A DNA stretch of 15,864 bases. Source: Solirubrobacteraceae bacterium (GTDB lineage Bacteria; Actinomycetota; Thermoleophilia; Solirubrobacterales; Solirubrobacteraceae). How positions within the stretch are numbered: position 1 is the stretch's first letter; every line of letters starts with the position of its first letter. Location: contig JANJUA010000419.1 of NCBI GenBank assembly GCA_024710825.1, positions 1 to 15,864 of the forward strand. Direction: 5' to 3'. The position numbers and the translations under genes were made by a program. This document shows, one piece after another, positions 400-12,850 of this stretch. The notes beneath the pieces were generated by a model that worked only from the letters and a program-made list of their open reading frames with translations, made no database searches and was not told the DNA's origin.

Positions 400-634
400 T
401 CCCGATGTACTGCTGCCACTCCGGCGGGACCATGTCCTCCGGGGTGATGGCGTCGACGGGGCAGGCCTCGACGCACGCGTCGCAGTCGATGCACTCGGTC
501 GGATCGATGTAGAGCTGGGCGTGCTCCTCGAAGTCGGGCTCGTCGGGCGTGGGGTGGATGCAGTCGACGGGGCACACCTCGACGCACGAGGTGTCCTTGG
601 TGCCGATGCACGGCTCGTTGATGACGTACGCCAT
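371..634 (-). CDS. fdxA: 7Fe ferredoxin ([3Fe-4S] + [4Fe-4S]), FdxA type
   Basis: This is a soluble low-potential electron carrier of 87 residues. The N-terminal cluster motif is C9-x7-C17-x3-C21-P, followed by C25. The second motif is C48-x2-C51-x2-C54-x3-C58-P. This cysteine pattern and the start MAYVINEPC match the seven-iron ferredoxins of actinobacteria (FdxA). Between the motifs is an acidic stretch (residues 28-40) longer than in mycobacterial FdxA, and the C-terminal tail is short. The ATG at 632-634 was chosen over a longer in-frame GTG/ATG-type extension because CCGGAGG lies 5 nt before it and homology begins exactly there. The 3' end overlaps the converging SufR-like gene by 29 bp. 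The 5' end faces the hydrolase-cyclase gene across a 130-bp gap. A TATTTT hexamer at 670-675 (minus strand) is a possible -10, with no clear -35. The electron partner is not in the window. Confidence 0.92.
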   Translation of the reverse strand: MAYVINEPCIGTKDTSCVEVCPVDCIHPTPDEPDFEEHAQLYIDPTECIDCDACVEACPVDAITPEDMVPPEWQQYIGINEAYYRRG

Positions 635-752
635 GGGAACCTCCGGAGACTTTCTACATTGCGACTGGGAAAATAGCAGCTGGGGCGACCCGGCCCGTAC
701 CATCGCAGCCCGCGATCGCCGGAAGATCCCGCACGAGCCCCATCCGGCCGCG

Positions 753-758
753 TATCGT
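753..758 (+). promoter_or_regulatory. Putative -10 of a leaderless promoter (hydrolase-cyclase gene)
   Basis: TATCGT is followed by exactly 6 nt and then the ATG at 765. No Shine-Dalgarno sequence precedes that ATG. This spacing puts the expected transcription start at or next to the A of the start codon, as in leaderless actinobacterial mRNAs. No convincing -35 is visible 17-18 bp upstream. Confidence 0.45.
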
Positions 759-764
759 GGGCCG

Positions 765-2090
765 ATGGCCCCCTCGGTGCACTACGTCACCAGCGCGGGC
801 GCCTCGATCGCCTGGTCGAGCGTCGGGGCCGGCCCGCCGACGCTGGCGTTCGTCCCCGGCTTCGCCAGCCACCAGGACCTCTACTGGGACGAGCCGGCGG
901 TCGCCTCGTTCTTCGACCGCCTGGCGTCGTTCGCGCGGCTCGTGATGTGGGACAAGCGCGAGCAGGGCCTCTCGGACCGCACGGGCCAGCCGCCGACGCT
1001 CGAGCAGAGCATGGACGACCTCGTGGCGGTGCTCGACGCCGCCGGCGCCGAGCGGGTCACGCTGTTCGGCGTCTCCGAGGGCGGCCCCATGGCGGTGCTC
1101 TTCGCCGCCACGCACCCCGACCGGGTGGACGGGCTGATCCTCTACGGCAGCTACGCCCGGCTCGTGGCGACGCCGGACTTCCCGACCGGCCTCGCCGAGG
1201 AGGCCTTCGACCGCTTCGCCCAGGAGGTCTTCGAGCACTGGGGCGAGCCCGTGGCGCTGCGCTGGTTCGCGCCGTCCCTCAGCGACGACGAGGCCTTCGG
1301 CGCATGGTGGGGCCGCTTCCTGCGGGCCGGCGCCAGCCCTCGCGGCGCCCTCGCCCTGCTCGGCCTCTACCGCCGCCTGGACGTCCGCCGCGTCCTGCCC
1401 GCGATCCACGCGCCGACGCTCGTGCTGCATCGGACCGACGACCGGATGATCGACGTCGGCCAGGCGCGCTACCTCGCCGAGGAGATCGAAGGGGCGCAGC
1501 TGGTCGAGCTTCCCGGCGCCGACCACCTTCCGTTCGCCGGCGACACCGACGCCCTGGTCGACGAGGTCGAGGCGTTCCTGACCGGCAGCCGGCCGAGCCG
1601 GAGGCCCGACCGCGTGCTGGCCACCGTGCTCTTCGAGGACATCGTCGACTCGACCCGCCGCGCGGCGGCGCTCGGCGACCGGCGCTGGCATGCGCTGCTC
1701 TCCACGCACGACCGCGTGGTCGCCGAGACGGTGAGCCGCCACGGCGGCGCCGTCGTGAAGTCGCTCGGGGATGGGGTCCTGGCGATCTTCGACGGCCCGG
1801 CGCGGGCGATCCGCGGCGCGCTGGCGATCCGGGAGGAGGCGCGTCGGCTCGGACTCGACGTGCGCGCCGGCCTGCACACCGGCGAGCTCGAGCGCGACGG
1901 CGGCGACGTGTCGGGGATCGCGGTCCACATCGGCGCGCGGGTCGCGGCCGCCTCCGCCCCCGGCGAGGTGCTGGTCTCCCGCACGGTCACCGACCTCGTC
2001 GCGGGCTCCGGCGTGACGTTCGAGGACCGCGGTGAGCACGACCTCAAGGGCGTGCCGGGGGCGTGGCGGCTGTACGCGGTCACGGCCTAG
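765..2090 (+). CDS. Alpha/beta hydrolase - class III adenylate cyclase fusion (Rv1900c-like)
   Basis: A 441-residue two-domain protein with no signal peptide or membrane segment, so probably cytosolic. Residues 1-275 form an alpha/beta hydrolase: oxyanion region PGF near 31, nucleophile elbow G-V-S104-E-G, acid D225 or D226 in HRTDD, and H254 in GADH. Residues 285-440 form a class III nucleotide cyclase. The metal aspartates are D292 (FEDIV) and D336 (KSLGD). The adenine-selecting pair is K332 and D381, the transition-state arginine is R392, and H388 replaces the usual Asn in VNxAAR. The catalytic set therefore looks complete and predicts an ATP-to-cAMP enzyme working as a dimer. M. tuberculosis Rv1900c has the same domain order. 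The hydrolase substrate is unknown. The ATG at 765 was preferred over an in-frame start further upstream because homology begins there and that extension runs antisense through fdxA. Confidence 0.88.
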   Translation: MAPSVHYVTSAGASIAWSSVGAGPPTLAFVPGFASHQDLYWDEPAVASFFDRLASFARLVMWDKREQGLSDRTGQPPTLEQSMDDLVAVLDAAGAERVTLFGVSEGGPMAVLFAATHPDRVDGLILYGSYARLVATPDFPTGLAEEAFDRFAQEVFEHWGEPVALRWFAPSLSDDEAFGAWWGRFLRAGASPRGALALLGLYRRLDVRRVLPAIHAPTLVLHRTDDRMIDVGQARYLAEEIEGAQLVELPGADHLPFAGDTDALVDEVEAFLTGSRPSRRPDRVLATVLFEDIVDSTRRAAALGDRRWHALLSTHDRVVAETVSRHGGAVVKSLGDGVLAIFDGPARAIRGALAIREEARRLGLDVRAGLHTGELERDGGDVSGIAVHIGARVAAASAPGEVLVSRTVTDLVAGSGVTFEDRGEHDLKGVPGAWRLYAVTA

Positions 2091-5756: not shown

Positions 5757-7655
5757 TTAGCCGGGAAGCGCCGCCGCCGCGCCCGTCTCGGCGGCGGCGG
5801 CCGCGGCGCGCTCGACCGCGTCCACGTCGCGGACCGCGCCCGTGTCGGCCGAGGTCGCCATCGCCGCGTAGGCGCGCAGCGCGGGGGAGACGACCCGGTC
5901 GCGCGCCACGGGGGCGTAGCCGCCCGCGGACTCGAGGCGCTCGCGCCGGGAGGCCAGCTCGTCGTCGGAGACCTCGAGCGTCAGCCGGCGGTTGGGGATG
6001 TCGATCGAGATCGTGTCGCCGCTCTCGACGAGCGCGATCGCTCCGCCCGACGCCGCCTCGGGCGAGACGTGCCCGATCGACAGCCCGGAGGTGCCGCCCG
6101 AGAAGCGGCCGTCGGTGATCAGCGCGCACGCCTTGCCCAGGCCGCGGCCCTTGAGGTAGGAGGTGGGGTAGAGCATCTCCTGCATGCCGGGCCCGCCGCG
6201 CGGCCCCTCGTAGCGGATGACCACCACGTCGCCCTCCACGATGCGCCCGCCGAGGATGGCGTCCACCGCGTCCTCCTGGGACTCCACCACGACCGCCGGG
6301 CCGCTGAACGACAGGATCGACTCGTCGACCCCCGCCGTCTTCACGACGCTGCCGTCCACCGCCAGGTTGCCGTAGAGGATCGCCAGGCCACCGTCGGCCG
6401 AGTAGGCGTGCGCGACGTCGCGGATGCAGCCGTCGGCCGCATCGGTGTCCAGCGACTCCCAGCGCTCGGACTGCGAGAACGCGGTCGACGAGCGGCGGCA
6501 GCCCGGCGCGGCGTGGAAGACCTCGAGCGCCTCGGCGGACGCCTGCCCGCTGCGGACGTCCCACGGCAGCAGCCACTCGTCGACCGTCCGCGCGTGCACG
6601 GTCGTCACGTCCTCGTGCAGCAGGCCGCCGCGGCGGAGCTCGCCGAGGATCGCGGGGATGCCGCCCGCGCGGTGGACGTCCTCCATCAGGTATGTCCCGT
6701 TCGGGGCGACCTTGCAGATGCAGGGCACGCGACGCGACAGCTCGTCGATGTCGCGCATCGTGAAGTCGACCTCGGCCTCCCGGGCGGCGGCGAGGATGTG
6801 GAGCACGGTGTTCGTCGAGCCGCCCATCGCCACGTCGAGCGTCATCGCGTTCTCGAACGCCTCGCGCGTGACGATCGAGCGCGGCAGGATGGACTCGTCG
6901 TCGCCGTCGTAGTAGCGGTCGGCGATCTCGACGACCGTCCGCCCGGCGGCCTCGTAGAGCTCCTTGCGCGCGGTGTGCGTCGCCAGGATCGAGCCGTTGC
7001 CGGGCAGCGCCAGCCCGAGCGCCTCCGTGAGGCAGTTCATCGAGTTCGCCGTGAACATGCCCGAGCACGAGCCGCAGGTCGGGCAGGCCGCCTCCTCGAT
7101 GCGCGCGATGTCCTCGTCGGAGACCTCGTCGGCGACGGCGTCGGCGATCGCGCTGATGAGGTTCACCCGCTTGCGCACGGTGCCGTCGACCAGCACCGCG
7201 GTGCCGCCCTCCATCGGCCCGCCGGAGACGAACACCGTCGGGATGTTCAGGCGCAGGGCGGCGTTGAGCATCCCCGGCGTGATCTTGTCGCAGTTGGAGA
7301 TGCAGATCAGCGCGTCGGCGCAGTGCGCGTTGACCATGTACTCGACGCTGTCGGCGATCAGGTCGCGCGAGGGCAGCGAGTAGAGCATCCCGCCGTGGCC
7401 CATGGCGATGCCGTCGTCCACCGCGATCGTGTTGAACTCGCGGGGGATCCCGCCCGCGGCCTTGACGGCGTCCGCGACGATCTCGCCGACCGGCTTGAGG
7501 TGCGTGTGGCCGGGGACGAACTGCGTGTACGAGTTGGCCACCGCGACGATCGGCTTGCCGAAGTCCTCGCGCTCGACTCCGGCGGCTCGCAGCAGCGCGC
7601 GGGCGCCGGCCATGTTTCGGCCGTGGGTGACGGTGCGTGACCTGAGGGCGGGCAT
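5757..7655 (-). CDS. ilvD: Dihydroxyacid dehydratase (branched-chain amino acid biosynthesis)
   Basis: A 632-residue enzyme converting 2,3-dihydroxy-3-methylbutanoate (and the methylpentanoate homologue) to the 2-oxo acids of valine, leucine and isoleucine synthesis, plus pantothenate. Family signatures are all present: [10 protein letters not shown] (48-57), SNC122DKITPG, CPTCGSC197[20 protein letters not shown], and the C-terminal [19 protein letters not shown]. Length and motifs resemble the E. coli IlvD branch, whose Fe-S cluster is oxygen-labile; cluster type here is inferred from that resemblance. The C-terminal tail is alanine-rich and unremarkable. The ATG at 7653-7655 is 17 bp from the start of the divergent TetR gene and has no Shine-Dalgarno sequence. 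A TAGCGT hexamer 6 nt upstream suggests a leaderless transcript. The gene ends 34 bp from the converging small repeat gene. No other ilv or leu gene is in the window. Confidence 0.97.
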
Positions 7656-7666
7656 GCGGGTACGCT
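7637..7666 (+). promoter_or_regulatory. Putative leaderless promoter of the TetR gene
   Basis: A -35-like GTGACC (7637-7642, four of six match TTGACA) is followed after 18 bp by TACGCT (7661-7666, a TANNNT -10). Then come 6 nt and the ATG at 7673. The expected start of transcription is at the start codon itself. The -35 lies inside the ilvD coding region and the -10 overlaps the ilvD -10 on the other strand. Confidence 0.55.
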
Positions 7667-7691
7667 ACCGGAATGGCCGTTCCGGTGCCAT
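7662..7691 (-). promoter_or_regulatory. Putative leaderless promoter of ilvD
   Basis: On the minus strand, ATGGCA (7686-7691, four of six match TTGACA) is followed after 18 bp by TAGCGT (7662-7667), then 6 nt, then the ilvD ATG. The -35 falls inside the TetR coding region. The -10 shares five base pairs with the TetR -10, so both promoters can hardly be occupied together. Confidence 0.55.
7667..7686. promoter_or_regulatory. Near-perfect 20-bp palindrome, probable TetR operator
   Basis: The arms ACCGGAA (7667-7673) and TTCCGGT (7680-7686) are perfect inverted repeats, and the centre is TGGCCG with a symmetric GGCC; only one base pair of the 20-bp dyad mismatches. The dyad coincides with the spacer of the ilvD promoter and covers the TetR start codon. 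A bound dimer would block ilvD initiation and its own. Length and symmetry fit a TetR-family operator; the assignment is inferred from position. Confidence 0.6.
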
Positions 7692-8269
7692 GGTCGTCGC
7701 TCACCGCCGACGAGAAGCGCACGCGCACCCTGGAGGTGGCCGACGAGCTGTTCGCCCGCGAGGGCGTCGACGTGCCGATGCCGACGCTCGCCCACGCGCT
7801 CGGCGTCGGGGTGGGGAGCATCTACCGCCAGGTCGGCACCAAGGACGACGTCCTCGCCGCGCTCGTCATCACCCGGTCGAAGGCGCTGCGCGCGCGGTTC
7901 CTCGCCACGCTCGACGAGCCCGATCCGTGGGCCGCCCTCGCCGCCGCCACGCACGCCACCGTCGACGACTGCCTGGGCGACGCGCTGTCGCAGTCCGCGT
8001 GGGACGTCGCCGCGTCCGCGTCCGCGGAGGTGCGCGCCGCGCGCGCGGGCGCCACCGACGCGCTCGCCCGGATGGTCCGGCGCGCCCGCGACGCGGGCGC
8101 TCTCCGCGACGACGCCTCTCACGAGGATCTCCGCCTCGTCTTCTGCGCCCTGCGTGAGCTGGCCGGCATCGGCCCCGAGGCCGCCCATCGGCTCGCCGAG
8201 CTCGCGCTGCGCGGCATCCGGGCCGACCCGCTCCGACCGAAAGGGGACCAATCTCCGGGGAACGGGTAG
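7673..8269 (+). CDS. TetR-family transcriptional regulator
   Basis: A 198-residue regulator. The N-terminal TetR DNA-binding domain spans about 14-62: RTLEVADELFAREGVDVPMPTLAHALGVGVGSIYRQVGTKDDVL is split here into helix 1 (18-30) and the helix-turn-helix (37-57), ending in the typical SIYRQVGTKDDVL recognition helix and helix 4. The C-terminal helical ligand domain (65-185) is variable as usual and gives no hint of the ligand. The ATG at 7673 is the only start that leaves the DNA-binding domain whole. It has no Shine-Dalgarno sequence, but a -10-like hexamer stands 6 nt before it. The gene is divergent from ilvD with 17 bp between start codons, and a 20-bp palindrome overlaps both promoters. 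Autoregulation and control of ilvD are therefore the simplest inference, with a branched-chain amino or oxo acid, or a related compound, as a speculative effector. Confidence 0.9.
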   Translation: MAVPVPWSSLTADEKRTRTLEVADELFAREGVDVPMPTLAHALGVGVGSIYRQVGTKDDVLAALVITRSKALRARFLATLDEPDPWAALAAATHATVDDCLGDALSQSAWDVAASASAEVRAARAGATDALARMVRRARDAGALRDDASHEDLRLVFCALRELAGIGPEAAHRLAELALRGIRADPLRPKGDQSPGNG

Positions 8270-8364: not shown

Positions 8365-10287
8365 TTGACTGACTTCAAGCAGGCGCTGGCGAAGGCGGTG
8401 ACCGAGGGGCCGGCCGCGACGGCCGAGGCCATCACCCTCAACGAGTACATCGATCGGGTGGCGGAACGGCCGACGATCGCCGCGACCGCCCACCAGCGCA
8501 TCCACGACATGCTCCGCGCCGCCGGCTCCACCGAGGGCCTGCACGCGGGGGAGGTCTCCTACAGCTTCTTCTCGGGCGAGCTGTTCGGCCTCGACGTGCC
8601 GCTCGAGCGCGTGGTCCGCTACTTCGAGACCGCCGCCCAGGGGCACGAGACGCGCCGGCGGATCCTGCTGCTGTGGGGCCCTCCGGGCGGGGCGAAGAGC
8701 TCGGTGGCCGCGATGCTCAAGCGCGGCCTGGAGGCGTGGACGGCGACCGACGAGGGCGCCGCGTACGCGCTGCGCGGCTGCCCGATGCACGAGGAGCCGC
8801 TGCACCTCATCCCGCAGTCGCTGCGCGCCCAGGCGCGCGAGCACACCGGTGTCGAGGTGGTCGGCGACCTGTGCCCGGTCTGCCGCTGGCGGCTCGAGCA
8901 CGAGTTCGGCGGCGACTTCCTCGGCTTCCCGATCGAGCGGATCGTCTTCTCCGAGGCCCGCCGGATCGGCATCGGCACGTTCGAGCCGGGCGACCCGAAG
9001 TCGATGGCGATGGAGCACCTGACCGGCGGCCTGGACTTCAAGGCCATCGAGACCCACGGGTCGGACTCCCATCCGCTCGCGCTGGACTGGGCGGGCGAGT
9101 TCTCGAAGTCCAACCGCGGCCTGTTCGAGGCGGTCGAGTTCTTCAAGAACCCCGCCGAGTTCCGCAACCTCTTCCTGACGATGGCCCAGGAGAAGCAGTT
9201 CAAGGTGGCCAAGTTCGGCTACATCGGCTCCGACACCGTCATCATCGCCCACACCAACGAGGCCGAGTTCCGCGCGTTCATGGCGGAGCGCAAGAACGAG
9301 GCGCTCAAGGACCGCCTCGTCGCGATCGCGGTGCCCTACAACGTCCGCGTCTCCGACGAGGAGAAGATCTACCGCAAGCTGCTGACCGGCGCCGGGACGC
9401 GCGACGACCTGCACATCGCGCCGTACGCGCTGCGTGCCGCCGCGATGGTGTCGGTCCTGTCGCGCCTGAAGGAGCACGAGAACCTCGGGCTCGTCGAGAA
9501 GATGAAGCTCTACGACGGCGAGGAGGTCGGCGACTGGAAGCTCGCCCAGATCCCGGAGATCAAGCGCGCCGCCGACCACGAGGGCATGAGCGGGCTCGGC
9601 CCGCGCGCGATCGTCGACATCCTGTCGGGCGCCGCGCGCAAGGCGGGCGAGGAGCACCAGACCGAGAAGTACCTCACGCCGATCATGTCGCTGATCGCCA
9701 TCACCGAGCACATCGAGCGCCTCGAGGCCCCGAAGGAGACGCGCGAGCAGCTCCGGGCGCTGACCGTGGACGTGCGCAACGAGATCGACCGCTCGCTCAA
9801 GGACGAGGTCCGCAAGGCGTTCGTGCCCGCGTTCGCCGAACATGCCCAGCGGCTGCTGGACAACTACCTCACCAACGTCGAGGCCTACTGCCAGGGGACG
9901 AAGACGCCCGATCCGATCACGGGCGAGGACCGCGACCCCGACGAGAACCTCATGCGGGCCGTCGAGGAGAAGGTCCGGCCGGCCGTGTCCGAGTCCGCGA
10001 AGGACACGTTCCGCCAGGGCGTCCTGATGCGCATCGGGATCGCGCTGCGCCGCGGAGAGCGGCCCCTGACCTACGAGACCGACACGGTCCTCGCCGGCGG
10101 GATCGAGGAGTACCTCTTCGACCAGCTCAAGGACATCGTGCGCGTCACGGTGTCCAAGACGAACCCCGACCGCGAGCAGGCCAAGCGGCTCAACGAGGTG
10201 CTGTCGACCCTCGTCGAGGAGCGCGGCTACACGGAGCAGTCGGCGCGCGACCTGCTCGACTACGTCGGTCAGCTCCTGAACCGATGA
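8365..10287 (+). CDS. prkA: PrkA/YeaG-family AAA+ serine protein kinase
   Basis: A 640-residue protein, close to the length of E. coli YeaG (about 644). The N-terminal AAA+ domain carries Walker A GPPGGAKS (105-112). A cysteine-rich insert, C139-P-M-H142 with C170-P-V-C173, looks like a zinc site and is typical of the family. The stretch SKSNRGLFEAVEFFKNPAEF (about 247-266) is the family's Walker B/sensor region, followed by AHTNEAEF and the C-terminal PrkA domain. Members phosphorylate serine/threonine in starvation or sporulation. B. subtilis PrkA has also been reported to act as an ATP-dependent protease, so the biochemical role is debated. The start is TTG with a strong Shine-Dalgarno sequence. 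The stop overlaps the yeaH start as ATGA. The gene heads a three-gene operon, and its 95-nt leader with two hairpins suggests added control of expression. Confidence 0.95.
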   Translation: MTDFKQALAKAVTEGPAATAEAITLNEYIDRVAERPTIAATAHQRIHDMLRAAGSTEGLHAGEVSYSFFSGELFGLDVPLERVVRYFETAAQGHETRRRILLLWGPPGGAKSSVAAMLKRGLEAWTATDEGAAYALRGCPMHEEPLHLIPQSLRAQAREHTGVEVVGDLCPVCRWRLEHEFGGDFLGFPIERIVFSEARRIGIGTFEPGDPKSMAMEHLTGGLDFKAIETHGSDSHPLALDWAGEFSKSNRGLFEAVEFFKNPAEFRNLFLTMAQEKQFKVAKFGYIGSDTVIIAHTNEAEFRAFMAERKNEALKDRLVAIAVPYNVRVSDEEKIYRKLLTGAGTRDDLHIAPYALRAAAMVSVLSRLKEHENLGLVEKMKLYDGEEVGDWKLAQIPEIKRAADHEGMSGLGPRAIVDILSGAARKAGEEHQTEKYLTPIMSLIAITEHIERLEAPKETREQLRALTVDVRNEIDRSLKDEVRKAFVPAFAEHAQRLLDNYLTNVEAYCQGTKTPDPITGEDRDPDENLMRAVEEKVRPAVSESAKDTFRQGVLMRIGIALRRGERPLTYETDTVLAGGIEEYLFDQLKDIVRVTVSKTNPDREQAKRLNEVLSTLVEERGYTEQSARDLLDYVGQLLNR

Positions 10288-11414
10288 CGGTCGTCGGCGG
10301 CTCGGGGCTCCCTCACGACGCGGGGCACCGGGACGCCCTGCACCACCGCGACCGGCTGCGCCGCAAGATCACCGAGCAGCTCAAGGCGCGCATCGGCGAG
10401 GAGGACATCATCGCGTCGGGACCGGAGAAGCGCGTCCGGGTGCCGGTCTCCGGCACGCGCTCCTGGCGGTTCATCCTGGACCGGGGGTCCGAGGAGGGCG
10501 TCGCGCAGGGCGACGGCGACCCGGGCGACGTGCTCGGGCCGCCCGGCGACGGGCCGCAGCGCGGCGAGGCGGGGACCGAGCCGGGGGAGGAGCTCTACGA
10601 GGTCTGGCTCGACATGGACGACATCGAGGAGCTGCTGTTCTCCGAGCTCCAGCTGCCGCGCCTGAAGCCCAAGGCGACCGCGGACGCGCAGGCCACGGAG
10701 GCGGTGTTCGACGACATCGCGCGCAAGGGCCCGCGCATCGACAAGAAGGAGACCCTCCGCCAGAACCTCGTGCGCAACGCCAAGCGCGGCCGCGCGCGGC
10801 TGGGCAGCATCGAGTCCGGCGACGTCCGCTACCTCTCCTACCGGGAGCGGCCCCTGCCGCGCCACAAGGCGGTCGTGTTCCTGGCGATGGACGTGTCGGG
10901 CTCGATGGACGTCTCGCGCAAGCGGATGGCCCGCCTGTTCTTCTACTGGTGCGTCCAGTTCCTGCACCGGCGCTACGACCAGACGGAGATCGTCTTCGTC
11001 GCGCACACCACCGAGGCGCGCGAGGTGACCGAGCACGAGTTCTTCCACCGGGCCGAGTCGGGCGGCACCCGCGTCTCCTCGGCGTTCGAGCTGATCGACC
11101 GCGAGCAGCCGGACCGCTACCCCGAGTCCGACTGGAACGTCTACGTGCTGCACGTCTCCGACGGCGACAACTTCACCGCCGACAACCAGCGGACGCTCGG
11201 GCTGATCGCGCGGCTCGCCGAGCGCTGCTCGCTCGTCGGCTACCTCCAGGTGGGCGAGAGCGGCTTTACGACCTCGCGGTCGCTGCTGCCCTTCTTCGAG
11301 GAGGCGGCGCCGGTGGACGGCTTCGTCTTCGCCGCGGCAGAGGACGACCGGGAGCTGTGGCCCGCGCTCAAGCGCTTCTTCGCCAAGGACAGCGTGGAGG
11401 AGGCCGTGCGGTGA
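10284..11414 (+). CDS. yeaH: YeaH/DUF444 family protein with VWA (MIDAS) domain
   Basis: A 376-residue protein of the DUF444/YeaH family, somewhat shorter than E. coli YeaH (about 427). The N-terminal part is charged, with a glycine- and acid-rich linker at 67-103 that looks disordered. The C-terminal von Willebrand factor A-like domain (about 195-370) has a full metal-ion-dependent adhesion site: D203-x-S205-x-S207 in DVSGSMD, T262 in SGGTRVSSA, and D293 in HVSDGDN. The ATG shares an ATGA with the prkA stop, and no clear Shine-Dalgarno sequence precedes it, so translation probably depends on coupling to prkA. AAA+ proteins are often paired with VWA partners (MoxR-VWA, RavA-ViaA, NorQ-NorD); by analogy YeaH may be the adaptor that brings substrate or SpoVR to PrkA. 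That role is inference. Confidence 0.93.
   Translation: MTVVGGSGLPHDAGHRDALHHRDRLRRKITEQLKARIGEEDIIASGPEKRVRVPVSGTRSWRFILDRGSEEGVAQGDGDPGDVLGPPGDGPQRGEAGTEPGEELYEVWLDMDDIEELLFSELQLPRLKPKATADAQATEAVFDDIARKGPRIDKKETLRQNLVRNAKRGRARLGSIESGDVRYLSYRERPLPRHKAVVFLAMDVSGSMDVSRKRMARLFFYWCVQFLHRRYDQTEIVFVAHTTEAREVTEHEFFHRAESGGTRVSSAFELIDREQPDRYPESDWNVYVLHVSDGDNFTADNQRTLGLIARLAERCSLVGYLQVGESGFTTSRSLLPFFEEAAPVDGFVFAAAEDDRELWPALKRFFAKDSVEEAVR
11396..11403 (+). promoter_or_regulatory. Shine-Dalgarno sequence of spoVR within yeaH
   Basis: GGAGGAGG inside the last codons of yeaH stands 7 nt before the GTG at 11411. It supports that start and suggests spoVR is translated well even though it overlaps the yeaH stop. 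Confidence 0.75.
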
Positions 11415-12850
11415 GCGACTACGCGCTCGAGGACCTGCAGGCGGTCGACGAGCGCTGCCGGACGATCGTCACCGGCGAGCTGGGCTTCGAGGCGCCGGAC
11501 GTCGTCTACCACCTCGTCCCGGCCGAGGAGGTCTACTACGCCGCCGCCAACGGCCTCCCCGCCCGCTACTCCAGCGCCCGCTGGGGCGCGCGCTTCGACG
11601 CGATGTACGGGCGCTACCGCCGCGGTGAGGAGCGCATCTACGAGCTGATCTTCAACACCCGGCCGGTGCACGCCTACCTCATGGAGGGCAACAGCCTCGT
11701 CGGCCAGACGCTCGTCATCGCCCACTGCCTCGGCCACGGCTACGTGTTCGAGCACAACGCCTGGCTGGGGGCCGTCGACCGCCAGATCATGCCGCGGGTG
11801 CTGTCGGCGGCACACCGCATCTCCGACTACATGGCCCAGCACGGACGCGAGCGGGTGGAGGGCCTGCTCGACGCGTGCCACGCGGTCGCGGTCCACCAGC
11901 CCCAAGCGCAGCTCATCCGCAAGGCGGGGACGTCGGAGCCCGAGCACCGTCCGGCGGAGTACGACGCGCTGTTCCCCGAGGAGGTGGAGGCCGAGCGCCG
12001 CCGGATCGCGGAGGAGCGCGACGCGCTACGCAGGCGCTTCCCGCGGGAGCCCGAGCAGGACCTGCTGGGCTTCGTCGAGCGCCACGCCCGCGCGCTGGCG
12101 GACTGGGAGCGCGACGTCATCTCGATCGTCCGCTCCGAGCAGGGCTACTTCCTGCCGCAGATGCGGACGAAGATCCTCAACGAGGGCGCCGCCGTGCTCG
12201 TCCACCAGGAGGTCTGCCAGCGCCTGTTCCTGCCGACGAACCAGTACTGGGAGTACGAGCAGCTCAACGCGGGCGTCGTGCAGCCGCATCCCGGGCCGGT
12301 GAACCCGTACAACCTCGGCATCGCGCTGCTGCGGGAGGTCATGCGCATCGCGACCGAGCCCGACGACGAGGACCGCGAGCGCTGGGGCTGGGCGGGCGAG
12401 GCCGACCCGTTCGAGCGGGTGCGGACCGTGCTGCGCAGCTACGACGACGAGGCCCTGGTGCGCGAGTTCCTCACCCCGCGCGTGTGCGAGCGCTGCCGCC
12501 TGTTCGCCTACGAGCGCCTGCAGCGCGACCCGCGGCGGATCCGGGTCTCCTCACGGGAGGCCGACGACGTCCGCGCGGCTCTCGTCGCGCAGGTCTCGAC
12601 GTCGGGGATCCCGCGCGTGGAGATCGTCGACGCCGACTTCGGCCGCCGGGGCGAGCTGCTGCTCGACCACCGCCACGAGGGCGTCGGCCTGGACCCGGAG
12701 TACGCGCGCGGCACGCTCGTGGAGCTCGCGCGGCTGTGGGGCAAGCGGTGCGTGGCGCGCACCATCCAGGGCGATGACGCGCAGCGCCGGATGTGGTTCG
12801 CGGGCTCCCCGGACGGCAGCTCCGAGCAGGGCTTCGGGGAGCCCCGGTAG
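11411..12850 (+). CDS. spoVR: SpoVR/YcgB family protein
   Basis: A 479-residue protein of the SpoVR family (E. coli YcgB is about 510). Visible family features include an N-terminal region with MYGRYRRGEERIYELIFNTRP (66-86, split by MYGRYR and YELIFNT), and an HCLGHGYVFEHNAW motif (105-118) rich in histidine as in the family's AHVxGHxxFFxNN. The conserved core has MRTKILNEG, TNQYWEYEQLNAG and NPYNLGIALLRE. The C-terminal region has REFLTPRVCERCRLFAY. SpoVR is needed for spore cortex formation in B. subtilis, but the family occurs widely in non-sporulating bacteria next to prkA and yeaH, as here. Its biochemical activity is not established. The start is GTG, sharing GTGA with the yeaH stop. 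The gene ends one base from the converging MMPL exporter gene, leaving no room for a terminator. Confidence 0.94.
   Translation: MSDYALEDLQAVDERCRTIVTGELGFEAPDVVYHLVPAEEVYYAAANGLPARYSSARWGARFDAMYGRYRRGEERIYELIFNTRPVHAYLMEGNSLVGQTLVIAHCLGHGYVFEHNAWLGAVDRQIMPRVLSAAHRISDYMAQHGRERVEGLLDACHAVAVHQPQAQLIRKAGTSEPEHRPAEYDALFPEEVEAERRRIAEERDALRRRFPREPEQDLLGFVERHARALADWERDVISIVRSEQGYFLPQMRTKILNEGAAVLVHQEVCQRLFLPTNQYWEYEQLNAGVVQPHPGPVNPYNLGIALLREVMRIATEPDDEDRERWGWAGEADPFERVRTVLRSYDDEALVREFLTPRVCERCRLFAYERLQRDPRRIRVSSREADDVRAALVAQVSTSGIPRVEIVDADFGRRGELLLDHRHEGVGLDPEYARGTLVELARLWGKRCVARTIQGDDAQRRMWFAGSPDGSSEQGFGEPR

Follow-up and report, generated by a model that had tools for sequence, protein, structure and literature searches.

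Bidirectional promoters have been reported in which the divergent starts lie most often 18 bp apart, the bases -7T and -11A are reciprocally paired and a T occupies position -18 (PMC10268837); the shared -10 class, as used here, comprises divergent starts separated by 7-25 bp, 18 bp being the most frequent distance. The basal activity of the five tested E. coli bidirectional promoters is described as too low for competition between polymerases, such competition being seen only after strong activation of one of the directions (PMC12825309). Leaderless genes are marked by the motif TANNNT about 12 bp ahead of the start codon, and this kind is reported to account for more than one-fifth of the genes of actinobacteria (PMC3160421). 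Three divergons unite some of these features. The csoR-cueA divergon of Bradyrhizobium liaoningense shares with the locus described below a regulator and a target in divergent orientation, overlapping -10 elements and a repressor box lying over them, and its regulator mRNA was mapped by RACE as leaderless; it differs in that cueA has a 42-nt leader and that the repressor is CsoR instead of TetR (PMC5057107). For prpD/Rv1129c of M. tuberculosis (PMC3898074) and cvkR/cas12k of Anabaena (PMC9938897), the mapped starts indicate that both the regulator and the divergent gene are leaderless, as predicted here, but the starts are 120 bp apart in the former (from the positions in Table 2) and the spacer is of 82 nt in the latter, so that the promoters are separate and no -10 is shared.

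The window, i.e. the whole stretch of 15,864 nucleotides that was analysed, comes from a genome of the Solirubrobacteraceae, and the closest named match at the locus is HOG64 (Solirubrobacteraceae bacterium), whose TetR is 80% identical. On the forward strand, tetR (7673..8269) comprises 198 codons and its product matches TetR_N with 31.9 bits (cut-off 24) and TetR_C_43 with 35 bits (cut-off 27). On the reverse strand, ilvD (5757..7655) comprises 632 codons and encodes a dihydroxy-acid dehydratase (DHAD) of the E. coli-like type, matching PRK12448 (NF009103) with 1098.6 bits (cut-off 710) and TIGR00110 with 801.2 bits (cut-off 618.15). Re-reading of the letters confirmed the coordinates, hexamers, spacings and palindrome given by the initial annotation, including the gap of 17 bp between the ATG of tetR (7673, forward) and that of ilvD (7655, reverse), which corresponds to 18 bp from A to A. 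Downstream of tetR, positions 8365-12850 of the forward strand contain prkA (PrkA AAA and C-terminal domains), further frames and then a SpoVR-like protein, an order that is the usual PrkA-SpoVR neighbourhood. Elsewhere in the window (549-2090, forward strand), an alpha/beta hydrolase domain and an adenylate/guanylate cyclase domain are fused in one frame.

Between the two start codons, the motif TACGCTA (7661..7667, both strands) can be read as a shared symmetric -10. It provides TACGCT to tetR (7661-7666, forward) and TAGCGT to ilvD (7667-7662, reverse), each hexamer ending 6 nt ahead of its own ATG, with its first T 12 bp before that ATG. Both genes thus carry the TA-led leaderless signature, TANNNT being found on each side and no Shine-Dalgarno sequence being detected for ilvD, where this was tested; transcription is predicted to start at A 7673 for tetR and at 7655 for ilvD. 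The distance is a favoured one in the relative G460, where 894 genes were called in 1.2 Mb: TANNNT precedes in-frame ATGs at 6 nt in 39 cases and at 7 nt in 41 cases, against 1, 2 and 1 cases at 3, 4 and 5 nt and 12, 17, 11 and 6 cases at 8 to 11 nt. To be legible on both strands, the -10 needs an A directly after TANNNT. This A is present in the window, where each strand has its TANNNT and the bases -7T and -11A pair reciprocally.

The conservation of this mirror A was followed through the tetR subfamily in 34 distinct promoters, which had been picked for the presence of TANNNT, GGA and ATG and not for the A, the duplicates L087 and L009 having been removed. Of these, 32 have an intact mirror hexamer, with three variable middle bases, and the A is absent from L083 and L094. 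Among the 26 family tetR matches at E 1e-30 or better, 23 are part of this set; L096 and L097 have no such start, and L010 was excluded by the length filter (148 codons). Since L010 has a G after TANNNT, it counts against the symmetry and its inclusion brings the proportion to 32/35. L012 has its TANNNTA 11 nt from the tetR ATG. The promoters are related and the counts are not independent, so they are given without p-value. For comparison, an A follows TANNNT in only 3 of the 113 leaderless candidates of G460 (one of the three being the ilvD of the same locus) and in 1/39 of the class used as background. The same ilvD type was also found in loci without a tetR match in the fetched flank; 8 of 10 are leaderless-like, and in none of these eight does an A follow TANNNT, as judged by eye. 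The initial annotation had described mirror-image leaderless promoters with one common -10, and the comparison with relatives backs this description. It had also attributed to each gene a -35 hexamer and had extended the -10 into an 11-bp dyad, GGTACGCTACC (7659-7669, centred on 7664). As letters, both are there: GTGACC for tetR (7637..7642, forward) and ATGGCA for ilvD (7686..7691, reverse) each agree with TTGACA at four of six positions after an 18-bp spacer. Among nine distinct compact promoters, a -35 of this quality is present on the tetR side in one, the window itself, and on the ilvD side in three, and random sites of G460 reach four of six in 1.7% of cases at a fixed 18-bp spacer and in 7.1% with the best of spacers 16-19. 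The -35 boxes of both genes are therefore probably due to chance, or, for ilvD, set by the tetR codons. In the dyad, the inner TANNNTA is conserved and the outer GG/CC arms vary. Because neither the -35 boxes nor the outer arms are conserved in the compact relatives, they were set aside as functional parts.

We consider it likely that the locus functions as a bidirectional promoter around a single symmetric -10, with both mRNAs leaderless, a local TetR repressing both genes and a conditional DHAD isozyme under its control. RNA polymerase would bind TANNNTA in one of two orientations and would begin transcription at the A of the corresponding ATG, so that one direction yields a leaderless tetR mRNA and the other a leaderless ilvD mRNA. 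TetR bound at 7667-7686 would repress tetR and ilvD together until a ligand frees the operator, and this switch would add a conditional, E. coli-like, probably [4Fe-4S] DHAD beside the second DHAD-like gene that most of the linked genomes examined possess. From the geometry we also infer mutually exclusive transcription, as the initial annotation did, an expectation that is tempered by the low basal activities reported for E. coli (PMC12825309).

A family search of 146 genomes recovered 16 in which tetR and an E. coli-like ilvD are linked. The gap between the start codons is 17 bp in six of them and 18 bp in four, five have long gaps of 49, 75, 92, 93 and 108 bp, and in one the two genes are split; the gap of L082 was computed from a start 6 nt further upstream than the one estimated from the alignment. 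In the compact genomes, the distance from tetR to the -10 stays at 6 nt; where the gap is 18 bp, the additional base is found on the side of ilvD. The initial annotation had proposed to compare the tetR-ilvD gap of related genomes for conservation of both dyads; the conserved inner TANNNTA and operator agree with it, and the outer arms of the -10 dyad do not. The recurrence of the inner TANNNTA, of its spacing to both ATGs and of the operator in relatives is, judging from these comparisons, more than chance. According to the first alternative, only tetR would start at its ATG; ilvD would be transcribed from a separate, leadered promoter inside tetR, and the mirror hexamer would be incidental. 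The five long-gap loci, among the 13 linked ilvD loci examined, speak for such a promoter: they have a Shine-Dalgarno sequence and a longer region upstream of ilvD, and they lack the leaderless signal. However, the eight other loci are compact; TANNNT lies 6-7 nt from the start there and a Shine-Dalgarno sequence is absent. The mostly leaderless-like character of this ilvD type at loci without a tetR match and the rarity of the mirror A elsewhere in G460 argue in the same direction, so that we regard a separate ilvD promoter as unlikely. The genome with the 108-bp gap (L089, G546), whose ilvD was assigned a GTG start led by a Shine-Dalgarno sequence, also has an in-frame ilvD ATG at 18 bp, and may thus be a compact genome with a longer protein; this would correspond to a possible N-terminal extension of its IlvD.

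Considering again the bidirectional promoter with a shared -10, the split locus L083 is, by its arrangement, a natural test of this reading. Its tetR and ilvD are about 0.9 kb apart (2047-2920) and each has its own copy of the promoter and operator; the copy on the ilvD side (TACGGTA) keeps the symmetry and the copy on the tetR side (TAGACTC) has lost the A. A tetR-like frame of 25 codons is carried by the promoter-operator copy on the ilvD side. The mirror A is also retained in relatives without ilvD, where the divergent start of a transporter or of another gene is 26-112 bp away. It does not, therefore, depend on the doubly leaderless layout, and in these relatives the divergent transcript made from the mirror -10 would have a leader.

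The second element of the intergenic region is a near-palindrome (7667..7686, both strands), in which nine of ten arm positions are complementary and which is conserved in the ilvD-linked relatives. It looks like a TetR operator placed over the tetR start codon. Should both genes start at their ATGs, its conserved core, CGGAATGNCCRTTCCG (7669-7684), would occupy positions -14 to -29 relative to ilvD and -4 to +12 relative to tetR, the whole near-palindrome lying between -12 and -31 of ilvD. The proposal that the palindrome fills the ilvD promoter spacer and covers the tetR start is thus borne out, the element being conserved and, by its position, of the TetR-operator type; a single TetR dimer could block both genes from there. 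Codon 3 of tetR has T as its wobble base in all 34 promoter rows, and the third positions of the four tetR genes measured contain 94-98% G+C, so that the constraint seems to act on the DNA and not on the protein. In the 16 linked genomes, all exact matches to the pattern CGGAAYGNNCRTTCCG are at the tetR-ilvD locus, the window genome containing a single one; across the whole family, 46 of 146 genomes have the pattern, compared with 3 matches in the backward control. A wider TetR regulon was set aside on account of this confinement of exact matches in the linked genomes to a single locus; the pattern is exact and weaker sites, such as one in L003, would escape it. A second operator-like site, 37-42 bp upstream of the tetR ATG, is present in 12/25 non-compact rows and in 0/9 compact rows. 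Among solved structures, a sequence search with TetR found 11 sequences, all of them distant TetRs (best E 1.1e-12), and these gave no clue to the ligand.

In a tree of 34 TetR sequences, rooted on a chosen outgroup, the ilvD-linked proteins group together as a single clade (15 rows, 94/94), which is nested within TetRs encoded mostly beside transporters or other genes. All three divergent neighbours tested for MFS_1 among these related TetRs belong to this family, and some other neighbours are not MFS transporters. The compact and long states require at least four changes on the tree, most forks inside the clade being unresolved. Relatives of this TetR already have the start codon within the operator and the symmetric -10; the promoter is thus probably older than its link to ilvD. 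In the TetR-MFS divergons L186 and L197 (site at 1501), an ATG located within the second operator offers the transporter frame a further possible start. This history bears on the second alternative, in which TetR would regulate only itself or, historically, a transporter, and ilvD would be a bystander neighbour. This explanation fits with an operator centred close to the start of tetR and with relatives of this TetR that stand beside MFS transporters or other genes. We nevertheless find it quite improbable, as the ilvD promoter spacer of the compact genomes lies under the operator, the ilvD-linked clade has kept its link, the split locus L083 retains an operator copy at ilvD, and the second operator of L003 and L081 is located between tetR and ilvD. 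The third alternative, in which the symmetric A would serve recognition by TetR or reflect a general preference of promoters and not be part of a second -10, agrees with the retention of the A in relatives without ilvD but is the least credible, since the equivalent base, read from the letters, is A in just 3 of 12 second operators and therefore does not look like an operator base, and since so few of the G460 leaderless candidates have it.

A second DHAD-like gene, 38-41% identical over the N-terminal part, is present in 12 of 15 linked genomes examined (G543, the sixteenth, is outside this count); it was not found in the three others, G001, G539 and G541, the last being 82% complete. The second DHAD of the window genome, the only copy run against family models, passes TIGR00110 and PRK00911. 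No ilv gene was recognised with Pfam beside it among the six ORFs of an 8.5-kb stretch, four of which have no Pfam match and are perhaps not genes. The third cluster-ligand position is reported to separate the oxygen-sensitive [4Fe-4S] DHADs from the [2Fe-2S] ones (PMC9543379). At this column, mapped here by alignment, the window IlvD has Gly49, as expected for the E. coli-like [4Fe-4S] type, and this residue aligns with Cys45 of the second DHAD; the residue is Cys in all three second copies read. The window genome thus holds two DHAD types, and the window IlvD probably carries a [4Fe-4S] cluster. Given the second DHAD, TetR probably gates an extra, E. coli-like isozyme, and the idea of a TetR controlling the sole DHAD is weakened. 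The initial annotation had suggested branched-chain amino or oxo acids as effectors; with an E. coli-like type and a second DHAD, such a ligand is not the obvious guess. A role of the spare DHAD in self-resistance was also considered. Among the matches listed by a literature search on TetR with ilvD, no title or abstract opening dealt with a dedicated regulator of this kind.

The pattern CAT-TANNNTA-ATG was also scanned in 61 relatives against a backward control. At gaps of 17, 18 and 19 bp, 12, 12 and 7 places were found against 1, 4 and 2 in the control (31 against 7 when pooled), with no such excess at a gap of 13 bp (3 against 2). Gene-like frames are present on both sides in 6/12, 3/12, 4/7 and 0/3 of the forward places at gaps of 17, 18, 19 and 13 bp, respectively. 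The 13 two-sided places among the 31 amount, by reading, to eight distinct gene pairs, and four of the 13 are the tetR-ilvD locus. The other pairs include, according to Pfam, a CsoR-type repressor and a heavy-metal ATPase, an aconitase, an acylphosphatase, an FAD-binding protein and a histone-deacetylase-like protein, and a peptidase and an acyltransferase. In L115 and L116 (about 1501-1525), a csoR-like repressor and a heavy-metal ATPase are separated by a 19-bp gap with a mirror TANNNTA, the repressor having been tested with Pfam in L115. The excess at gaps of 17-19 bp is suggestive of a promoter class. A scan of the phylum gave matches in 137/396 genomes and was not used as evidence, several genomes having as many backward as forward matches; few of the 30 loci fetched from it (L043-L072) have long frames on both sides. 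We tentatively propose, as an idea that could well prove wrong, that doubly leaderless bidirectional promoters recur in these Actinomycetota. Their start codons would be the paired starts of one symmetric -10, with the gap locked at 17-19 bp, and the choice of mRNA would be the orientation of the polymerase. Regulators would use them (tetR/ilvD here and, in two other genomes, the pair of a CsoR-type repressor and a heavy-metal ATPase), and the module would have placed a TetR switch on a spare DHAD isozyme of the oxygen-labile type.

If the preferred interpretation is true, leaderless mRNA and a symmetric -10 would be joined in one compact unit, with a geometry predictable from sequence; the choice of polymerase orientation would become testable at native genes without leader effects; and an E. 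coli-like DHAD isozyme would have a dedicated switch. Compared with described systems, the window resembles the bidirectional promoters of Warman, Grainger and colleagues in having a -10 symmetric on both strands with -7T/-11A paired; with the ATGs as transcription starts, the two starts would be 18 bp apart and position -18 would be a T for both genes. It differs from the published promoters in that the predicted starts are themselves the start codons, which fixes the gap between them, and in that the operator of a local repressor overlaps one of the starts. The TetR-MFS divergons found here (L006, L090, L197 and others) share the symmetric -10 and, for those within the 34-row set, the leaderless tetR start inside the operator; their divergent gene is a transporter and they often have the second operator upstream of tetR. 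No doubly leaderless shared -10 was found in the literature searched, where the nearest precedents are partial. The geometry of the locus is that of the published 18-bp bidirectional class, and its distinctive feature is that both RNAs would be leaderless.
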